A stretch of 64,000 nucleotides of DNA. Source: an uncultured Flavobacteriales bacterium (GTDB taxonomy: Bacteria > Bacteroidota > Bacteroidia > Flavobacteriales_G > Salibacteraceae). Shown piece after piece: positions 27,901 through 36,110 of this stretch. Each line of letters opens with the position of its first letter. Position 1 is the stretch's first letter. The stretch is from the NCBI GenBank assembly GCA_913062955.1, contig CAJXZP010000013.1, positions 1 to 64,000 of the forward strand. The letters run 5' to 3'. The position numbers were made by a program, and so were the translations under genes. The notes beneath the pieces are model-generated. The model had not been told where the DNA came from. It saw only the letters and a list, made by a program, of their open reading frames with translations, and made no database searches.

Positions 27901-28391
27901 TGACACGGATTTATCAAATTAATTTGGAAGGTAAAATAGGCCAGAAAGTATCGGGTTCGGAATTTTCATCGATTCGAAATTATTTAATCGATTACCAAAC
28001 CATCAAACCAACGTTGACCTATTTACAGGGTTCAGGAGTGAAAATTAAGTTGTTCTTTGAACAATCAGACAAAAAAAATAGGATAGAAGACGCATTGGAA
28101 ACCAATCTTAGTAAAAAGTTTGGCGCAGAATTGAATGTACGTAAAGTGGGCAAAGGAAGTATGATTCTTTCCGGTAGTTATTTGGTGAACAATTTTGTGG
28201 GGGATGTAAATTCTCCCGTAGCTTTTCAAATGCTGGATGGTTTGCAACCCGGGCAAAATGCTTTATGGGAACTCAGTTATCAACGCACCATAGCTAAATA
28301 CTTACAACTCAATTTAAGATACAATGGAAGGGTGAGTGAAGATTCTCCGGTCATTCATACAGGAAGTGTTCAAGTAAGAGCTTTCTTTTAA
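24951..28391 (+). CDS. Large outer-membrane protein of an uncharacterised Bacteroidota family
   Basis: A 1146-residue protein with a signal peptide (SLVVIAFLVSAISSWAQ). The N-terminal half has the pattern GVLFGNNQNLGINSNLNLQL, then EVFIDGQKMIRGQENDYVIDY and VIEFQYSAQAYSRSLF, similar in style to modules of the gliding/T9SS translocon protein SprA but at under half its length. The second half reads as a long beta-barrel and ends in FF. An EF-hand-like loop, DYNGNGVVEQDEF, occurs near residue 850. The ATG at 24951 gives a clean signal peptide; the open frame continues 32 codons upstream into the leader. Its stop overlaps the convergent thioesterase stop. A relation to SprA is inference only. Confidence 0.75.
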   Translation: MKQSLVVIAFLVSAISSWAQLKSNAHLKNISTQSDTVFFDSLSVDPNTFLMPGIDSSAYGVSFSEGYLIWYNAPTADSVQISYRTWPLNITKPVSNKSTLVFRPDFKGSVNPFKYTGSDTQPMMFSTGKLDKSGSISRGVLFGNNQNLGINSNLNLQLAGELTNNVKIKAVISDDNIPVQPDGNTQLLQDFDQVYIQLYNDDWKLVAGDFRIQKPQSHFMQFDKRLRGGGFAARFKVSPNVKNTLSVNAALSRGKFSRNIIQGVEGNQGPYRVTGAENEAYIIILSGTEEVFIDGQKMIRGQENDYVIDYNNAQVTFTANQPINKDKRIVIEFQYSAQAYSRSLFQISDNIKTEKLNLNFHVYSEQDNKNQPLLQDLTRNNIALLETIGDDINSAIVPAINETEFSSDRVMYKAVIDSSSSDTVFVYSTSPDSARYQLRFSNVGIGFGNYVEISSEANGRVFEYIAPINGVSQGNYLPVIVLITPKRKQMYTIGGDYKLNRTTTLLFEGVMTNNDVNTFSSIGNQNDLGGGFRVGFENRKQITNDTVAPWVMKAKVTYENRSDNFEVVQRYRSVEFDRNWNIRGQTLTGMQQIPTAEIGFTKKKLGTMSYQFKSFLSGKSYQGMRHQLMTDLDNQNYTAQFTGSYLASKGGLGESKFIRQKGLLQKKYTHINIGFRDDYEYNLRTEPAADTLSGTSYQFLEWEAFITNGDSAKNKFRLGYMNRFNEKANKDKLERSTLAQAINGNLKLLSNRKAQLQLSSQYRVLEVMNNALYTGDPEQNLTNRIDYSLRLLKGALTLSSFYEIGSGLTEEQAYIYVEVPAGTGVYTWVDYNGNGVVEQDEFQVAVFQDQANYVRVLTQTNNFEKIYRTQFNQTAFLRPVAVWKGKKGFRKIVSKFSDQFAYRIDRKTDDNSVKNWIDPFATHLADSTIRVLNSSLRNTVYLNRANRTWSMDYTYQSVNSKILQTNGLLGTSDTYNQVNFRYNMTRIYQINLEGKIGQKVSGSEFSSIRNYLIDYQTIKPTLTYLQGSGVKIKLFFEQSDKKNRIEDALETNLSKKFGAELNVRKVGKGSMILSGSYLVNNFVGDVNSPVAFQMLDGLQPGQNALWELSYQRTIAKYLQLNLRYNGRVSEDSPVIHTGSVQVRAFF

Positions 28392-28933
28392 AGATGTATT
28401 TCGCACCGCTCGCCCTGAAGTAAGCTCATTAATTCATCCTTTGAAATTTCCGTTTTATTCCGTTTCATTTGTTCGTTACGGTATTTCTTTAAATCCTTTC
28501 GAAACAAGGCTTCTCCAAATCGTTTGACATCTGTAAAGTTATCTAGTAATAAGGGTGGGACTTTGGCGGGTTTACCATTATCGCCTTTCGCTACCATGGT
28601 GAAATAACACGTATTGGTGTGTTTAACGCTTCTGTTTTTTACGTTTTCTGCGGTTACTTTTATACCGACTACAATGGAGGTATTCCCCACATAGTTTACC
28701 CGTGCCATCATGCATACCAAATCTCCTACTTCAACGGGTTCTATAAAATCAACCCCATCTACCGAAACCGTTACGCAATAATTTCCGGCATGTTTGGTGC
28801 TACACGCATACGCGACCTTATCCATTAACCCGAGTAAAATACCGCCATGAATTTTGCCTCCAAAATTGGCGTAGGCAGGGACCATTAATTCGGTGATTAT
28901 AGTGTCAGAATCCTGGGGAGTTCGTGCTTGCAT
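28388..28933 (-). CDS. Acyl-CoA thioesterase, hotdog fold
   Basis: A 181-residue hotdog-fold thioesterase that hydrolyses acyl-CoA esters in the cytosol. Signatures are GKIHGGILLGLMDKVAYACS near residues 29-48, VTVSVDGVDFIEPVEVGD and the strand VVGIKVTAENVKN, as in the YciA/BFIT/ACOT class. A charged C-terminal tail of about 45 residues (FRKDLKKYRNEQMKRNKTE) extends beyond the minimal fold. Its stop codon overlaps that of the convergent upstream gene by 2-3 nt, so there is no intergenic terminator. Confidence 0.9.
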   Translation of the reverse strand: MQARTPQDSDTIITELMVPAYANFGGKIHGGILLGLMDKVAYACSTKHAGNYCVTVSVDGVDFIEPVEVGDLVCMMARVNYVGNTSIVVGIKVTAENVKNRSVKHTNTCYFTMVAKGDNGKPAKVPPLLLDNFTDVKRFGEALFRKDLKKYRNEQMKRNKTEISKDELMSLLQGERCEIHL

Positions 28934-28980: not shown

Positions 28981-29955
28981 TTACAGTTCCGAATATTCAA
29001 AACGGGGAGACCCTTTTTCACCCCCTTGATTGTACCAATCTAAAAAGTGAATTTTATAGAACTTACCCGATTGGGTTCTGAAAATGTAATTCTTACTTGG
29101 ATCTGTGGTATAATAACCGACATCAAAATCGTACCATTTCCAATTGTACCCAATGTTATCAATGCGGTCAGTGTAATTCGGAGCGGAGAGGTCAGCTAAG
29201 GTTATGGACTCAAACTCTTTGGTAAATACTTTGTTGCTTTGCGGTAGATTGGGGTTTAGAATAACGCCTGTTACGAGGTAAGGAACCACAGGATCCATGT
29301 CATAAAATACAAATGTGTATTGGGTAAACACAATATCCCATGTGGTCATAGGAGGTGCAATTTGAACTTGATTTCCCGTATTATTTAAACTGTAGTAACT
29401 GTAAAAATAGTTAGGGTCCTTTACTATTTCGGCAGCGATCCAAGTATCCGAATTTAACTCCGCGTGACGGAAATAGAAATGCGTTTCGGTGGCACTATCC
29501 ATACGTATTTTTGTAAATCCTAGTGATTTACCAACTTCGTCTATCCCACGATTTAACAGGTAGATTTGTGGGGTAATACGCCAATCACCTATGGCCGTAC
29601 TATCGAGGTTTCCTGAAAATTCATCCCACCTCCAATCGGCTCCAACGGTATCATGAACAGCCGTAATATCTGCCTTTCCGGTAGGGGATGCATAGGCTAA
29701 ATTGGCCCCGTTTAACGTAATGTGCCAACCATCATTGTTGTTCTCAAAGGCCAAGTCCCAATCCGTTTTTTTGTTTCGAGAGACTTCGGTATTGGTTTCA
29801 ATATTATACCAAATTTGATCGGGATATAAGTTACCCATATCTACTACGTCCGTTAACGACTCACCGGGTAGATGTTTCGGAACCGGAATTTCATCTTTGC
29901 TGCAAGAGCTTGCGAAAACGGAAAAAACAACGCTAATTAAAATCCACTTTTTCAT
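28981..29955 (-). CDS. Double HmuY-like lipoprotein
   Basis: A 324-residue lipoprotein with lipobox ASSC (Cys18). Two HmuY-like units are visible. The first has WDLAF at residues 66-70 followed by WHITLNG. The second has WDIVF at 206-210 and ends with YIFRTQSGKFYKIHF and PRFEYSEL, the typical closing strands of HmuY. HmuY proteins are surface hemophores that hand heme to a TonB-dependent receptor. This is the last gene of the iron operon, 4 nt after feoB. Anchoring in the outer membrane is inferred from the lipobox. I cannot see which residues would hold heme, and related proteins may bind other ligands. Confidence 0.78.
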   Translation of the reverse strand: MKKWILISVVFSVFASSCSKDEIPVPKHLPGESLTDVVDMGNLYPDQIWYNIETNTEVSRNKKTDWDLAFENNNDGWHITLNGANLAYASPTGKADITAVHDTVGADWRWDEFSGNLDSTAIGDWRITPQIYLLNRGIDEVGKSLGFTKIRMDSATETHFYFRHAELNSDTWIAAEIVKDPNYFYSYYSLNNTGNQVQIAPPMTTWDIVFTQYTFVFYDMDPVVPYLVTGVILNPNLPQSNKVFTKEFESITLADLSAPNYTDRIDNIGYNWKWYDFDVGYYTTDPSKNYIFRTQSGKFYKIHFLDWYNQGGEKGSPRFEYSEL

Positions 29956-29959
29956 AATC

Positions 29960-32074
29960 CTAATGCAAAATTTGATAGGTAATAAAACTTAATAAATAAG
30001 CCAGTCCGGTCATGTAAACTAACTGAACCATGGGAACTACCCAGCTATTGGTTTCCCGTTTCACAATGGCTAATGTACTCATACATTGCATGGCTAATAC
30101 GTAAAATATAAGTAAAGAGAATGCCGTGGCAGAAGTATATACAAGTTCCCCCGTATCAGCATGACGCTCCTGACGCATTTTTGCCATCACAGATTCCGCA
30201 TCGCCATCACTACCCACACTATAAATGGTGGCCATGGTACTAATAAATACCTCTCTGGCTGCAAATGATGTAATTAATGCAATTCCAATTTTCCAGTCAA
30301 AACCTAAAGGCTTGATCGCTGGTTCTAGTTGTTTACCTAAAATACCCGCATAAGATCCTTCAATCTTTTTGGCAGCTACAATATTGTTTAATTCATCTCC
30401 AGAGATTGTATTATCCACATAATAAGAACGCGTTTTCGCTTCAATGATTTCTAAATCATTCCCCGGGCCAAAAGAAGCTAATACCCATAATACCATAGAT
30501 ATGATCAAAATTATTTTACCTGCATTGGTAATAAATACACCCACCTTTTGAACGACCGTAATGCTGATGTTTTTCCAATAAGGCATCTTGTATGTAGGTA
30601 ACTCCATCATTAAAAATGAACGGTCTTTGGATTTTAAAATCAGTTTCATAACCCAGGCGGACCCCAGAGCGGCTACTACTCCTAACAGATATAAACCCAT
30701 CATAACCAGCCCTTGTAGGTTGAATATCCCACCTACGGCTTTGTCGGGTACCGCAAATGCGACTAATACCGCAAATACCGGGATTCGGGCCGAACAACTA
30801 ATAAAGGGCGTAACGAATATGGTAATTAATCGTTCTTTCCAATTACTGATGGTTCGGGTGGCCATAATTGCAGGAACCGCACAAGCAGCTCCGGAAATTA
30901 AAGAAACAATACTTCGTCCATTCAGTCCAAATTTCCGCATCAATGTATCCGATAGGAATACCGCACGCGACATATACCCCACTTCTTCCAGTAAGGAAAC
31001 GAGGATGAATAAAATAGTGATTTGAGGAATGAAAATAACAATACCTCCAATTCCAGCTAAAATTCCATCGGTTATAAAATCGGATAATAATCCGGTAGGT
31101 AGCATCGTTTTAGTGGCATCTATGATAGAGGTCATCGTACCGTCAATCAAATCCATCGGGTAGGTTGCCCAAGCAAATATGGCTTGAAAAATCACGAATA
31201 GCGTGGCCAAGAAAATCAAACTTCCCCAAAACGGGTGCGTCAGAATTTTATCCGCTTTCGCTGTTTTTGTTTCATCATCTTCTTTTACATGCACCACCAC
31301 TGATTCCATGATGGGATGCAATTGATCATACCGAGCCATGATTTCATCAAATTGAAGCCCCACACTATTGAACTTTAATTCGGTAATCAAAGTATCTAGG
31401 CGAGTAGACTCTTGATCCGATATAAAATCAAGATTTTTGTAATTATGTGCGGTCAATAAAGCGCGGTAGTTGTTGGTAATCCCAAACATCTTCTTTACCT
31501 CATTCTCCAATTCAAATGCAAAGGGTTCTACGTTTAAAAATGGTTCGCAATTAACACCTTCCATTTGAAGTATTACGGGACCAATGTCCTTGGTGCCCTC
31601 TCCGTTTCGGCCATTGATTTTAACTACGGGGATACCCAATTTTATGGATAATTGGTTCTCTTCACATGACTTCCCTTCACTATGGGCCACATCCACCATG
31701 TTCAGTAAAAGAATAATTGGAATTCCGAAGTCCATGATTTGAGTGAGCAAAACCAAATGTCGTTCTAGGTTATTGACATCGGCTACATACAAAACCAAAT
31801 CTGGGTACGTTGACCCATTTTGATTCAATAAGGTTTCTAAAACAATTCTTTCGTCTGTGGAGTTGGGATACAAGCTATACGTTCCTGGTAAATCGGTAAT
31901 CACCGCTTTACTCCCATTGGGTAAAGGGTAGGTTCCCGATTTTTTGTCGACTGTAACCCCTGGGAAATTTCCTACGGTTTGGTTTAAACCCGTGAGTCTA
32001 TTGAATACCGAAGTTTTCCCTGCATTTGGATTACCAATTAAGGCAATTTTCAAGTTTTGTTCGTCCGTACCCAT
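29960..32074 (-). CDS. feoB: Ferrous iron transporter FeoB
   Basis: A 704-residue inner-membrane transporter importing Fe(II). The N-terminal GTPase has G1 GNPNAGKTS at residues 14-22, the G2 region NFPGVTVDKKSG, G3 DLPGTYSLYP and G4 LNMVDVAHSEGK. A helical GDI-like region runs to about 260. The transmembrane part has the two gate repeats. The first reads SGAACAVPAIMATRTI (canonical is closer to GCNVPAIMATR) and the second SFAAREVFISTMATIYSV. FeoA lies directly upstream and an HmuY-like lipoprotein directly downstream. In other bacteria FeoB is controlled by Fur or FNR; no obvious site is visible here. Confidence 0.95.
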   Translation of the reverse strand: MGTDEQNLKIALIGNPNAGKTSVFNRLTGLNQTVGNFPGVTVDKKSGTYPLPNGSKAVITDLPGTYSLYPNSTDERIVLETLLNQNGSTYPDLVLYVADVNNLERHLVLLTQIMDFGIPIILLLNMVDVAHSEGKSCEENQLSIKLGIPVVKINGRNGEGTKDIGPVILQMEGVNCEPFLNVEPFAFELENEVKKMFGITNNYRALLTAHNYKNLDFISDQESTRLDTLITELKFNSVGLQFDEIMARYDQLHPIMESVVVHVKEDDETKTAKADKILTHPFWGSLIFLATLFVIFQAIFAWATYPMDLIDGTMTSIIDATKTMLPTGLLSDFITDGILAGIGGIVIFIPQITILFILVSLLEEVGYMSRAVFLSDTLMRKFGLNGRSIVSLISGAACAVPAIMATRTISNWKERLITIFVTPFISCSARIPVFAVLVAFAVPDKAVGGIFNLQGLVMMGLYLLGVVAALGSAWVMKLILKSKDRSFLMMELPTYKMPYWKNISITVVQKVGVFITNAGKIILIISMVLWVLASFGPGNDLEIIEAKTRSYYVDNTISGDELNNIVAAKKIEGSYAGILGKQLEPAIKPLGFDWKIGIALITSFAAREVFISTMATIYSVGSDGDAESVMAKMRQERHADTGELVYTSATAFSLLIFYVLAMQCMSTLAIVKRETNSWVVPMVQLVYMTGLAYLLSFITYQILH

Positions 32075-32076
32075 GA

Positions 32077-32319
32077 TTAGTATTTTAAAATAATATGAAC
32101 TGCTTCTTCTGTTCGAAGGGCAAATGCGTGTCCGTTTACTAAAAAGTACATGGTTTTTCCACCCGGTCCTTTACGAATAAGTTGAATGGGCGACTTAGGA
32201 CGGCATCCAATCTCCAAAAATTTGGACGACATTTCTTCATTTCCAAATTCTAGAATAATGCTCGACTCCTTTGGTTTTAAGTCGGTTGCTCTGCGTTTAT
32301 TTATGTTGGATTTGCTCAC
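32077..32319 (-). CDS. feoA: Ferrous iron transport protein FeoA
   Basis: An 80-residue SH3-like protein, the cytosolic accessory of FeoB. The second half is diagnostic: FLEIGCRPKSPIQLIRKGP then YFLVNGHAFALRTEEAVHIIL, corresponding to the usual L-G-G-V and ALR-EA patterns of FeoA. It precedes feoB by 2 nt and follows the TonB-dependent receptor by 9 nt, so the three are almost certainly cotranscribed. Confidence 0.9.
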   Translation of the reverse strand: MSKSNINKRRATDLKPKESSIILEFGNEEMSSKFLEIGCRPKSPIQLIRKGPGGKTMYFLVNGHAFALRTEEAVHIILKY

Positions 32320-32328
32320 AAATTGCTG

Positions 32329-34590
32329 TTAAAATTGGAACCCAAGTTTAAGGAAAAATACTCTACCGGGAGCGATTGGACGCGTGCCACCTGAACCTCC
32401 GTGTGAACCACTGCTCGAATTGGTAACCACGTTGGTTACATCTAAAATGTTTTTCACTCCTAAACCAAAGTTAATTCGGTCTTTCCAGAACTTTTTGTTA
32501 GCGGTGAAATCAAATAATCCATAGCTACCAATATAAGCTTGTTGCAATTCGTTGTTTTCATCAATAACTAAATTGGGCTGTTTACCCGAAAATTTATAAA
32601 AGAAGGAAACATTCGTTTTCGCTTTCTTAAAGGAAAAAGTTAACGATGAAGTTAATTGAGGGGAATAGGCCACCGGTAATGACTCCGTTTCGTTAATGGT
32701 GTTTTTGTTTCCAATTAATGAAAATCCAATACTCGCTTTGAAATGTGCGATGCTGTATTCGGCCTGGGTATTAAAACCTTGTGAAATAGCTTCATCCAAA
32801 TTGGCATACACGTATTGCGTGGCACTAGCCTGTGCAAGAGTAATTTTGTCATTGATATGGTTATAGAAAAACCCTAGTTTAAATTTAAACATTTGGCCTT
32901 TATGCAATCGAGTATACGTTAGGTTAGTCGAAGCGTGAATGGCGGTTTCTGCCAATAAATTAGGGTTCCCTTGAATATCGTGATTAATATCTACAAAATC
33001 CATATATAACTCTTTTACCGATGGGGCTCTAAACCCTCTAGCCAACGAGCCACGAATAGACATACTCGGTTTGACTTGGTATTTAACATATAGGGAAGGT
33101 ACAATAGGTGCTCCATATTCGGTATTGTAACTGGCTCTAATTCCTGGTCTTACGGTCCATTTGAGGGAAGGTTGCCATTCTAAACTAACAAAACCAGCAT
33201 AGTCGCCAATACTTTGTTTCTGATCCAGAATTCGATCACCCTTTGCCGTTTCATGGTTTAAATCTGTTCCAATTTGGTAACGCCAATTTTTTCCGGTGGG
33301 TGCTCCTGTAAAAGTAGCGCGCATCATTTTTAAATCCGTGTAAGTGGTGTCGTTAGAGCCAGGGGTAGTGTTTTGTTCGGAATGAACACCGGTTAAATCG
33401 GTGATAAACGACAATCGTTGTCGCTCATACAAATTGTAAGCGGCAATCACTTGAAGAGAATTGGCCGTATCCAATTTGAAATTCAACGCGGCACTGTTAT
33501 CCAATCTTTTGGTAATGTACTTGTCGTCAAATGCAACATCATCATAAGGTCCACGCGGGTTACCTCTGTTTAGAATCGTTTCATCAAATCCATTCATATG
33601 AAAGAGTAACGAACCTTTCTTTAAAGTTCGTCCGTATTTTATACCTCCTATAAATTGCGTTCTTGGTTTCCATAATTTAACTCGGGATGAATCTGCAATG
33701 GGTTCAGGGTTGGAAAATGCAGGGTCTCCAATATTCCATCCATCAAAAAAGTTCCGGGTAAAATTGATGGCTCCAAAGTTTTTCCCTCGGGTAAAACCTA
33801 CTCGTGCATCTACGTTATGCGTGCCAATGTTTTCGGTGTAATATTTCCCGTTGGCTGAAACCGGTTTTTCACTTTCTTTTTTAGTGATGAGGTTGATCGT
33901 TCCTGCAAGGGCATTACTTCCGTAAGAAACCGAAAGTGGACCTTCTACCACTTCTATGCGTTCAATGTCATTCAGGTTAATTTGACTTAAGTCAATGTTT
34001 CCATTTAATCGGCCTACGACCGGTACTCCGTCAATCAATATTTTTACATTTTCGCCAGATAAGCCTTGGATACTGATACTAGAGCCCAGAACGGCATCTT
34101 GTGAAATGTTCATGTTAAGCTCTCTCGACAATACTTGATCTAACGATACCGCATTAAGAGCATCGATTTTATCACGAGTAATTAGGGTGACTTTATGAAT
34201 CGCTTTTTCGGGTGAAGATTCTGAAAATTGTCCTGTAATTACTACTTGGTCTAATGATTCCGAGCTTTCTAGTAATTTCACCCTAGTAATGGAGCCTATA
34301 GCTACGGTGTCGTAGTAGGGGGCAAATCCAAGATAAGTAATATGAATCGCAATTCGACTCCCAAAATCAGCGTGGTATGGGAAAATGGCCTCCCCTTCTT
34401 TATTTACCAAAATGATTTCTTCCTTTAGGGTTTTAATAGCTGTAAAATGAACATGCGCATAAGGTAGCGGCTCATTAAATTCACGATCATGCACGATGAC
34501 TTTTGTTTCTTGGGAAAAACCTCCTAAAACCAAGAAAACCATCCCTACAGTAAGAATGATTTGTCTGAAAATATGTGTATTTGTGCTCAA
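32329..34590 (-). CDS. TonB-dependent receptor, HmuR/HemR-like
   Basis: An outer-membrane receptor of about 753 residues with a signal peptide, a carboxypeptidase-regulatory-like domain, a plug (DQVVITGQF, GENVKILIDGVPV, IERIEVVEGPLSVSYGSNAL) and a 22-strand barrel ending in LKLGFQF. A FRAP box (GFRAPSVKELY, about 519-529) and an NPNL box (about 542-545) flank His537, the arrangement known from heme receptors such as HemR. A Gly/Ser/His loop (GSHGGSGGTRP) lies near the C-terminus. The frame is open to an ATG at 34626, but that ATG sits in a 13-bp hairpin. TTG at 34590 gives a normal signal peptide and is preferred. Confidence 0.85.
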   Translation of the reverse strand: MSTNTHIFRQIILTVGMVFLVLGGFSQETKVIVHDREFNEPLPYAHVHFTAIKTLKEEIILVNKEGEAIFPYHADFGSRIAIHITYLGFAPYYDTVAIGSITRVKLLESSESLDQVVITGQFSESSPEKAIHKVTLITRDKIDALNAVSLDQVLSRELNMNISQDAVLGSSISIQGLSGENVKILIDGVPVVGRLNGNIDLSQINLNDIERIEVVEGPLSVSYGSNALAGTINLITKKESEKPVSANGKYYTENIGTHNVDARVGFTRGKNFGAINFTRNFFDGWNIGDPAFSNPEPIADSSRVKLWKPRTQFIGGIKYGRTLKKGSLLFHMNGFDETILNRGNPRGPYDDVAFDDKYITKRLDNSAALNFKLDTANSLQVIAAYNLYERQRLSFITDLTGVHSEQNTTPGSNDTTYTDLKMMRATFTGAPTGKNWRYQIGTDLNHETAKGDRILDQKQSIGDYAGFVSLEWQPSLKWTVRPGIRASYNTEYGAPIVPSLYVKYQVKPSMSIRGSLARGFRAPSVKELYMDFVDINHDIQGNPNLLAETAIHASTNLTYTRLHKGQMFKFKLGFFYNHINDKITLAQASATQYVYANLDEAISQGFNTQAEYSIAHFKASIGFSLIGNKNTINETESLPVAYSPQLTSSLTFSFKKAKTNVSFFYKFSGKQPNLVIDENNELQQAYIGSYGLFDFTANKKFWKDRINFGLGVKNILDVTNVVTNSSSGSHGGSGGTRPIAPGRVFFLKLGFQF

Positions 34591-34606
34591 AGTGCTTGTG
34601 AAATAA

Positions 34607-34635
34607 GCCCCTTCAATGAACGTCATTGAAGGGGC
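34607..34635 (-). terminator. Intercistronic hairpin between the HmuY-like gene and the receptor gene
   Basis: GCCCCTTCAATGA at 34607-34619 and TCATTGAAGGGGC at 34623-34635 are perfect 13-bp arms around a 3-nt loop, 8 nt after the stop of the upstream HmuY-like gene. The T tract on the minus strand is weak (TTATTT), so it may be a partial terminator or an mRNA-stabilising structure that favours the first gene of the operon. Confidence 0.8.
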
Positions 34636-34642
34636 GATAAGA

Positions 34643-35866
34643 TTATTGAATAACTAATTGTTTAACAATAGAATTAGAGTCATTACCAATACGAACTAAA
34701 TAAACACCTCCATTCCAATCAGAAACTGGAATAGTAATATTTGTAAGGTTAGCCACATTTACCATTTGAGAGTATACTACATTTCCAGTTATTGAGAAAA
34801 TAGTGATTTCTAAATTGTTTTGAATTTCAGTACTTTCAATTGAAATATTGATGTTTTCTGATGCTGGATTTGGAAATACATTTACCGTATTTAATCCAAC
34901 GTTAAAATCAGCTATACCTACAGACAATACTTTTGTTTTATTAAAATAAAAGGTAGAACTCATTCGTTCAAATCCGGTCATGGTGATTTGCCATACAGCC
35001 ATATCACTCTCCACAAAGTAAGTTAAGCTATCTGTGATGTCATATCCGCCTGATCCCCAGTTGTACGATTTCCAATCAGAGCCAATAGTGGCGATATCAT
35101 CCACATAGGTGGCAGTAGTCCAATCTGCAGAGTCAACAGGCATATTTTCTACTTGTGCAGTAGTTCGGTCTATGTTGGTTTGAATCCCAGTTAATCCATA
35201 ATACATATTGGGGGCAACTAAGCCGCTGTATTTATTGAAAACTAGATCCCAGTCGCTAACCATTGGCTCTAAGTCCATAATCGAATCGTGGTCTATGGAA
35301 TAGTAAATAAAGTTTTTGCTGGAGTAATCTTTTTTAGCAATAACGACATTGACTTCGTTCGATCCGTCAATATTTGCGTATGAAAATTCAAAAGTGTTTG
35401 AAGTATTATTATACATACCTTCAATTTTCAATTTTTTTAATGCACTTGCCTTGGTTTGGATAATATAAAGTTTATCCCCAATAACATTATGTGTGGCTTG
35501 ATTGTAAGTCCCCCAGGTAGAGGTAGAATTAGAAAGTGCGCTTTCCGTCCAATCGTTTTCATCATTTCTTAATTGTGTCCAAGTGGACAATCCAGTGGTA
35601 TCTACATTTGACCAGTCCGAAATGTTTCCGTTTTGATATAAATAAACTTCCACAGAGTGTCCATCATTTGTACGGATTGCAACGCTAGTGCTTTTTACTA
35701 CAAATGCTAAATCCCAGTCTGAAGAGGATTGCTTTACTTCTCCATTTTCAAGACTGTAATAGGTTTGGAATTCTTTACTAGATCCGATCGATACAGAGTC
35801 AGAAATTTGCGAAAATCCAATAAATGGAATCACGATGGATAAAATAAAAGGTACTAGTTTTTTCAT
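34643..35866 (-). CDS. Double HmuY-like protein with T9SS sorting domain
   Basis: A 407-residue secreted protein with signal peptide residues 1-20 (FIGFSQ). There are two HmuY-like units. The first has WDLAF at 51-55, VAIRTNDG and the closing strands LYIIQTKASALKKLKIEG. The second has WDLVF at 206-210, YGLTGIQTN and YFVESDMAVWQITMTG. The last 80 residues (VFPNPASENINI... IVKQLVIQ) are a type A sorting domain for T9SS export and surface attachment. It shares the two-unit layout with the lipoprotein at the other end of the operon. First gene of the iron operon. Heme binding is inferred from family and context only. Confidence 0.82.
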   Translation of the reverse strand: MKKLVPFILSIVIPFIGFSQISDSVSIGSSKEFQTYYSLENGEVKQSSSDWDLAFVVKSTSVAIRTNDGHSVEVYLYQNGNISDWSNVDTTGLSTWTQLRNDENDWTESALSNSTSTWGTYNQATHNVIGDKLYIIQTKASALKKLKIEGMYNNTSNTFEFSYANIDGSNEVNVVIAKKDYSSKNFIYYSIDHDSIMDLEPMVSDWDLVFNKYSGLVAPNMYYGLTGIQTNIDRTTAQVENMPVDSADWTTATYVDDIATIGSDWKSYNWGSGGYDITDSLTYFVESDMAVWQITMTGFERMSSTFYFNKTKVLSVGIADFNVGLNTVNVFPNPASENINISIESTEIQNNLEITIFSITGNVVYSQMVNVANLTNITIPVSDWNGGVYLVRIGNDSNSIVKQLVIQ

Positions 35867-35927
35867 GTTTTTGTTGTTACTAAATGGTGCTATTATAATT
35901 TCGGCAAAGATGGGAAGTATATGCGAG

Positions 35928-35939
35928 ATGACTTGTCAT
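35928..35939. promoter_or_regulatory. Small inverted repeat upstream of the iron operon
   Basis: ATGAC and GTCAT are separated by TT and lie 62-73 bp upstream of the first HmuY-like start codon, in the only gap where the operon promoter can be. It could be a regulator site. The arms are only 5 bp, so chance is possible. Confidence 0.25.
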
Positions 35940-36110
35940 GAAAAAGTCAAAGAACCTACCTAGAAGTAGTGATTTTCATCATGTTTTCAGGGCTTTTGAC
36001 GAGTTCAGAGTCGGAAATGAGGAATGTAGTTATTGGCATTATTTGACTGTAGACCGACCGGGTGATATTCCTTTTGTATTGTTAGATTTGCAGTTCTTAA
36101 AATTGAAGAT

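Follow-up and report, generated by a model that had tools for sequence, protein, structure and literature searches.

The window (the whole stretch of 64,000 nucleotides of DNA from an uncultured Flavobacteriales bacterium analysed here) carries a five-gene locus of the HmuY/HmuR kind in which FeoAB stands among the genes of haem capture. The locus does not form a separate category, and its FeoAB-bearing layout was not found in the literature searched. We consider it probable that it serves haem-iron acquisition with a Feo-type inner-membrane module, the iron being freed in the periplasm and entering via FeoAB. An iron or haem role had been proposed in a sequence-only reading of this DNA and is supported by the HmuY folds, by the FRAP...His549...NPNL motif of the receptor and by the presence of HmuTUV+HemS or CbiX in the same locus of relatives.

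Organisation of the locus

The ORF list contains five consecutive minus-strand ORFs at 28981–35866, as previously described (Table 1). From 5' to 3', these encode a T9SS-secreted HmuY-like protein (T9SS-HmuY), a TonB-dependent receptor, FeoA, FeoB and an HmuY-family lipoprotein. The receptor, FeoA, FeoB and lipoprotein genes are spaced by 9, 2 and 4 nt. The identities of FeoA and FeoB are as first assigned: PF04023 matches the former at 36.8 bits, and TIGR00437 the latter at 503.9 bits (cut-off 315.65), with the FeoB_N, Gate and FeoB_C domains all found. hmuS and hmuTUV are missing from the ORF list of the locus, again in agreement with the first description, so that the canonical hmuYRSTUV arrangement, with a CobN-like HmuS and HmuTUV linked to HmuY/HmuR, is not what is found here.

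Table 1. Positions of the features described in the text (coordinates refer to the window unless a locus handle precedes them).
Feature	Position	Strand	Basis or remark
T9SS-secreted HmuY-like protein, 407 aa	34643-35866	minus	TIGR04183, PF14064, fold
Terminator-like hairpin, 13-bp stem	34607-34635	minus	between T9SS-HmuY gene and receptor gene
TonB-dependent receptor: CarboxypepD-like N-terminal extension, plug, barrel	32329-34626	minus	Plug and barrel matches
FeoA, 80 aa, GTG start	32077-32319	minus	PF04023 36.8 bits, cut-off 23
FeoB ferrous-iron transporter, 704 aa	29960-32074	minus	TIGR00437; FeoB_N, Gate, FeoB_C
HmuY-family lipoprotein, 324 aa, lipobox Cys18	28981-29955	minus	PF14064 63.3 bits, cut-off 27
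Divergent intergenic region, T9SS-HmuY versus ribF	35867-36110		no Fur box
CbiX + FMN_bind/4Fe-4S pair, window genus	L177:9254-11531; L178:9064-11330

Beyond the lipoprotein gene, after a gap of 47 nt, comes a gene for an acyl-CoA thioesterase (4HBT; 28388–28933). This gene adjoins that of the lipoprotein in the congener L065 too; since the two are apart in the congener L063, the 4HBT gene is probably not part of the haem system.

The five genes do not make up the single uniform unit that had been assumed, as a terminator-like hairpin stands between the T9SS-HmuY gene and the four genes that follow it. It consists of a perfect 13-bp stem followed by a T-rich stretch. Hairpins of unrelated sequence are kept at the equivalent position in both L063 and L065, which argues that the hairpin is functional; attenuation or partial termination is its probable role. 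A partial terminator would fit here, since hmuY of P. gingivalis and hfpY are both known to yield an HmuY transcript of their own at higher abundance (PMC9331221). The called receptor start, ATG 34626, from which receptor residues are counted below, falls within the hairpin, and a TTG in frame with it at 34590 could be aligned by eye with a TTG of L065. Translation of the receptor probably starts at TTG 34590 rather than at ATG 34626.

Two HmuY paralogues with different anchors

PF14064 gave a single match in the lipoprotein (residues 44–321), above the gathering score. The model of the lipoprotein (pLDDT 91.2) was matched by VIA to haem-bound P. gingivalis HmuY (3h8t; Z 14.9, 138 residues, 2.5 Å), its residues 30–324 corresponding to residues 35–215 of one HmuY chain, and the next VIA rows were other HmuY homologues. 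In the genome search, PF14064 reached 29.7 bits with T9SS-HmuY, against a cut-off of 27, although hmmscan with the whole protein listed no match. The HmuY fold takes up about residues 16–317 of this protein; the VIA match to P. gingivalis HmuY 6ewm extends over residues 18–315 with a Z of 12.0 (131 residues, 2.8 Å), and here too HmuY homologues fill the other top rows. The top Foldseek rows for T9SS-HmuY held only tail-like and unrelated beta proteins; VIA ranked HmuY first. Owing to the inserted segments, Foldseek TM-scores were low for the HmuY models, and the HmuY matches were those given by VIA. The lipoprotein family and the T9SS-HmuY family were aligned by hhalign with a probability of 100 over 261 columns (E 4.6e-43), and the two end proteins are therefore paralogues.

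Each protein carries two WD(L/I)xF motifs, the second of which (WD(I/L)VF) does lie at residues 206–210 in both, as reported earlier. These motifs do not mark two HmuY domains. The notion of a ‘double HmuY’ with two units per protein was ruled out by the single stretch found with Pfam and by the one HmuY chain that covers the whole lipoprotein model; each end protein is one expanded HmuY fold with extra segments.

The difference in anchoring seen in the sequence-only reading holds. T9SS-HmuY is a T9SS cargo, TIGR04183 (42 bits, cut-off 23) identifying a type A C-terminal sorting domain at residues 330–407, and residues 322–407 structurally match T9SS tails (VIA). The lipoprotein has a lipobox with Cys18, invariant in 18 of 18 relatives and followed by SKDE, a surface-export-like sequence: CxKDE-type residues after the lipoprotein Cys presumably recall the surface export signal of Bacteroidota lipoproteins.

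Haem binding by a member of the HmuY family would be expected to involve two axial ligands, either His/His or Met/Met. In the alignment of the lipoprotein family neither a His nor a Met is invariant, and the sequence therefore does not reveal how haem would be ligated. His126 of T9SS-HmuY is conserved, with few exceptions, in every class of loci but the one linked to cytochrome cd1.

The TonB-dependent receptor

Plug and barrel matches confirm the receptor as TonB-dependent; the CarboxypepD-like N-terminal extension was read from the sequence and carries no model score. Its score with the haem-receptor model TIGR01785 was 125.2 bits, far under the cut-off of 316.85 and tied with a B12 model. 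The receptor did not discriminate between the NCBIfam models for haem, B12 and siderophores. The FRAP...His549...NPNL motif, with its His, is present and reads FRAPSVKELYMDFVDINHDIQGNPNL. His549 and His742 are conserved in 96% of about 95 aligned loci, and His549 is retained almost throughout each locus class apart from that linked to cytochrome cd1. Motif and context thus speak for the earlier label ‘heme-type’, and the failed TIGR01785 cut-off speaks against it; we describe the receptor as haem-receptor-like and do not assign it to the TIGR01785 family.

A conserved core with exchangeable modules

Relatives were taken from a family set of 35 genomes and from a scan of named-species genomes, which yielded 494 relatives; the analysis used the best 80 of these. 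The lipoprotein is encoded in 19 of the 35 family genomes, and in nearly all of these the T9SS paralogue adjoins it with the receptor in between. The same trio occurs in most of the best 80 of the 494 named-genome relatives. T9SS-HmuY, TonB receptor and HmuY-lipoprotein form a conserved Bacteroidota core, and the modules that accompany it are interchangeable. Among 100 loci, the module was HmuTUV+HemS/ChuX in 8, CbiX (a lipoprotein CbiX chelatase with a membrane reductase) in 15 and DUF6607, in some cases together with DUF6686, in 10; nothing was recognised in 51. The variable module mostly lies between T9SS-HmuY and the receptor and sometimes beside the trio. DUF6607 fills this same slot in L071, L078, L080, L088, L090, L093, L099, L123, L128 and L151, and L086, L087 and L091 show an order variant (receptor, lipoprotein, T9SS-HmuY). 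In the family set, DUF6607 was found in eight of the 35 genomes, all with the core; a haem-iron role is suggested for it.

Core copies beside cytochrome cd1 genes (L064, L076, L162) have lost His549 and His742 of the receptor and His126 of T9SS-HmuY, and were without a Fur box. By their residues, these cores probably take a different ligand. One genome, G001, has both a cytochrome cd1-type and a FeoAB-type core.

FeoAB was found within the locus in four rows, from three genomes besides the window (UBA10426, which is G025, was retrieved again as L102). Its position between receptor and lipoprotein is confined, among the loci surveyed, to the window genus (3/3 genomes) and UBA10426. The five-gene order is thereby shared by three further genomes from two genera and is therefore not due to chance. 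In the FeoB tree, the locus FeoB sequences form one clade (support 100/100). In G028 the lipoprotein gene is directly followed by a FeoA gene, next to which FeoB is encoded on the opposite strand. An apparent FeoB near the core in L120 was rejected on account of its Der-type GTPase behaviour and very long tree branch; its start reads MSNIVAIVGRPNVGKSTLF.

Upstream region and Fur boxes

Fur boxes were scored over the 14 positions of the Riemerella consensus ATTTAGAATTATTCTAAAT, the box having been demonstrated in that organism by EMSA (PMC5609570). Scores of 13 or 14 out of 14 were obtained upstream of T9SS-HmuY in 28 of 86 loci as compared to 3 of 1720 shuffles. A score of at least 13/14 was found in 26 of the 44 loci with HemS, CbiX or DUF6607 nearby and in 2 of the 35 core-only loci. 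The box is absent in all four FeoAB loci and in the cytochrome cd1-linked loci; the best upstream score was 9/14 in the window and 9–10 in the other FeoAB loci. The search upstream of T9SS-HmuY thus found no Fur control of the locus, and the iron regulation expected from the sequence-only reading has no sequence support, since the box of many relatives is missing from every FeoAB locus.

The window genome has Fur boxes elsewhere, namely beside suf, sdh and a DUF6686-like gene (translations read, no model score). The last of these (L179:2658-2996) encodes a small protein and is closely preceded by a perfect Fur box. Genes similar to it stand inside the core locus of relatives.

The −33/−7 promoter pattern of Bacteroidota was not found upstream in the window. 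Within the divergent intergenic region are TGAC-N6-ATGACA and CTACTTCTAGGTAG, each of which recurs in congeners. TGAC-N6-ATGACA is common to the upstream regions of the four FeoAB loci (window, L063, L065 and L075) and CTACTTnTAGGTAG to those of the three congeners. In several relatives a gene for a LuxR-type regulator lies upstream, with TACCTA/TAGGTA-like palindromes.

Iron and haem genes in the genomes

The window genome gave one FeoB_C match, that of the locus FeoB, and there is one FeoB per genome across the window genus. Genome profile searches detected no HemS, CobN/HmuS or haem oxygenase in this genus. Among the 35 family genomes, HemS was above its cut-off in four, always within the core locus, and FecCD permeases scoring above 270 bits (270–290) were found in these four only. 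CobN/HmuS (PF02514) occurred in none of the 35 and haem oxygenase in two, neither of them in the window genus. The single FecCD match of the window genome (35 bits, 275 aa) is not convincing. In UBA10426, no CbiX, HemS, CobN or FecCD was detected, despite FeoAB in its locus.

FeoB is encoded in 16 of the 19 core genomes versus 2 of the 16 without the core (Fisher p about 3e-5, kinship ignored), and in genus g7 the sole core-bearing genome of 13 is also the sole FeoB-bearing one. In most core-bearing family members FeoB is encoded outside the locus, and the co-occurrence holds when the two are unlinked. HemS, CbiX or DUF6607 were present in 14 of the 19 core genomes versus none of the 16 without the core (Fisher p about 5e-6, kinship ignored).

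In the window genus, a trio for haem capture has taken in the only FeoB of the cell. This suggests that haem loses its iron before the inner membrane is reached and that the freed iron is then pumped across. The sequence-only reading had likewise proposed that iron is freed in the envelope and enters as Fe(II). As the alternative routes tested (HemS, CobN/HmuS, haem oxygenase, a convincing FecCD) are absent and the sole FeoB is in the locus, this is the best-supported reading, although one that we infer.

FeoAB might instead be a passenger, placed between receptor and lipoprotein by one ancestral insertion and working independently, with the haem of the receptor fated otherwise. The locus FeoB is indeed of one origin, 51 of the 100 loci consist of the core alone, so that FeoAB is optional, and FeoB is found elsewhere in the genome in most core-bearing family members; many Bacteroidota, moreover, have FeoB without an HmuY core locus. 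We nevertheless regard independent work of FeoAB as quite improbable in view of the short gaps between the genes and the retention of FeoAB in the locus in four species of two genera at 65–90% FeoB identity. Furthermore, the window genus is without any other FeoB, no other way for haem, or for iron released from it, to cross the inner membrane was detected, and core and FeoB co-occur across genomes even where unlinked.

A CbiX lipoprotein and its membrane partner

All three genomes of the window genus (G000, G001, G002) encode a CbiX-family protein away from the HmuY locus. Elsewhere in the 35-genome family, CbiX was found only in G008, inside the core locus. In the window genus, the gene that follows CbiX encodes a membrane protein in which FMN_bind and Fer4_5 domains are combined; a CbiX lipobox is present in G001 and G002, the G000 copy being cut by the contig end. 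The capture locus of this genus thus itself includes the importer, and the chelatase pair is encoded elsewhere. In many relatives, CbiX homologues stand between T9SS-HmuY and the receptor, the partner being either an FMN_bind/Fer4_5 or a PepSY_TM-like protein; core-linked CbiX loci include L083, L084, L098, L100, L108, L122, L124, L129, L132, L154, L157 and others. The CbiX lipoprotein has tandem CbiX-like (class II chelatase) halves, and the His of NHGS is conserved in 100% and that of SxH in 95% of the aligned sequences. At L115:6648-7625, a CbiX-family protein in the core slot has an apparent Sec signal peptide in place of a lipobox.

The CbiX lipoprotein and the reductase could constitute a second, CobN-independent route of envelope haem dechelation, in which they strip haem delivered by the twin HmuY proteins and the receptor, and FeoB imports the Fe(II). 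We put this forward tentatively, as a possibility somewhat short of even. A partial literature search, which is weak evidence, found no description of a CbiX lipoprotein linked to HmuY. A CbiX step is not universal, since UBA10426 has FeoAB in the locus and no detected CbiX.

The FMN/4Fe-4S and PepSY_TM partners resemble iron reductases, and this also accords with a reading in which the HmuY paralogues and the receptor take up another iron complex, such as a xenosiderophore or loosely bound ferric iron; reduction would then occur in the periplasm and import through FeoAB, without any haem chemistry. The receptor not separated among haem, B12 and siderophore models, the lipoprotein without an invariant haem ligand, the locus without a Fur box and the genome without a haem-degrading enzyme would all agree with such a ligand. 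We consider it unlikely, however, as relatives have HemS/ChuX, HmuTUV or a tetrapyrrole-type chelatase together with this core, His549 of the receptor and His126 of T9SS-HmuY are kept in nearly all loci bar the cytochrome cd1-linked ones, and the nearest folds are haem-binding HmuY structures.

Discussion

With haem as the probable ligand, the locus would work as follows. Outside the cell, haem or an iron complex resembling it would be bound by the T9SS-secreted and the surface lipoprotein HmuY paralogues, the former released and the latter tethered, and both would hand haem to the TonB-dependent receptor, which would move it into the periplasm. Iron would be freed there, most likely by the CbiX-type lipoprotein chelatase with its FMN/4Fe-4S membrane partner, and Fe(II) would enter the cytoplasm through FeoAB. 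In this scheme we infer what the ligand is, where its iron is released, what part CbiX plays and in which direction the flow runs.

An HmuY-fold haemophore and a TonB receptor are shared with hmuYRSTUV of Bacteroides and Porphyromonas (PMC10100974, PMC12583661). In the published model of that system, haem iron is released in the periplasm and Fe(II) is imported by FeoAB, HmuS releasing Fe(II) from haem to FeoB (PMC12583661); the mechanism proposed for the window locus would match it. In contrast to hmuYRSTUV, the window locus is without a CobN-type HmuS, HmuT, HmuU and HmuV, and the window genome without any CobN. Its two HmuY paralogues differ in their anchors and exceed the HmuY chains of solved structures by about 100 residues each, and FeoAB lies within the locus rather than elsewhere.

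A receptor and an HmuY-like protein without HmuSTUV are also known from Flavobacterium psychrophilum HfpR/HfpY (PMC9331221) and Riemerella HmuR/HmuY (PMC5609570). HfpY was shown to bind haem (PMC9331221), and Fur/iron control was shown for both loci (PMC9331221, PMC5609570). These loci have one HmuY gene each, as against two in the window; in the hfp operon DoxX lies between hfpR and hfpY and no FeoAB is described, whereas the window locus has FeoAB. The Fur box known in Riemerella HmuR/HmuY is absent here. An HmuY domain joined to a T9SS sorting tail, as in the window, occurs in the T9SS-secreted HmuY of Flavobacterium columnare, for which the parts of the report consulted describe neither a neighbouring lipoprotein HmuY nor FeoAB and state that its deletion caused no growth defect in the media tested (PMC9618737).

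The proposed periplasmic release of iron followed by import through FeoAB has its counterpart in FeoAB/BtuS1/BtuS2 of B. fragilis, which without feoAB cannot use haem as an iron source (PMC6460266). The dechelatases of B. fragilis are CobN-like; the window genome has none of these and encodes a lipoprotein CbiX-type protein instead. The sequence-only reading, which knew of no described system with this layout, was right in so far as the layout was not found in the literature searched, but its parts (T9SS HmuY, HmuY and receptor pairs, dechelation to FeoAB) are known.

The locus brings the capture of haem at the surface and the import of ferrous iron together in one place. It represents one version of a capture core that is conserved across Bacteroidota and combines with different inner modules. 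The most interesting lead is the pair of CbiX lipoprotein and reductase as a possible non-CobN haem dechelatase of the envelope, a candidate that lends itself to direct testing.
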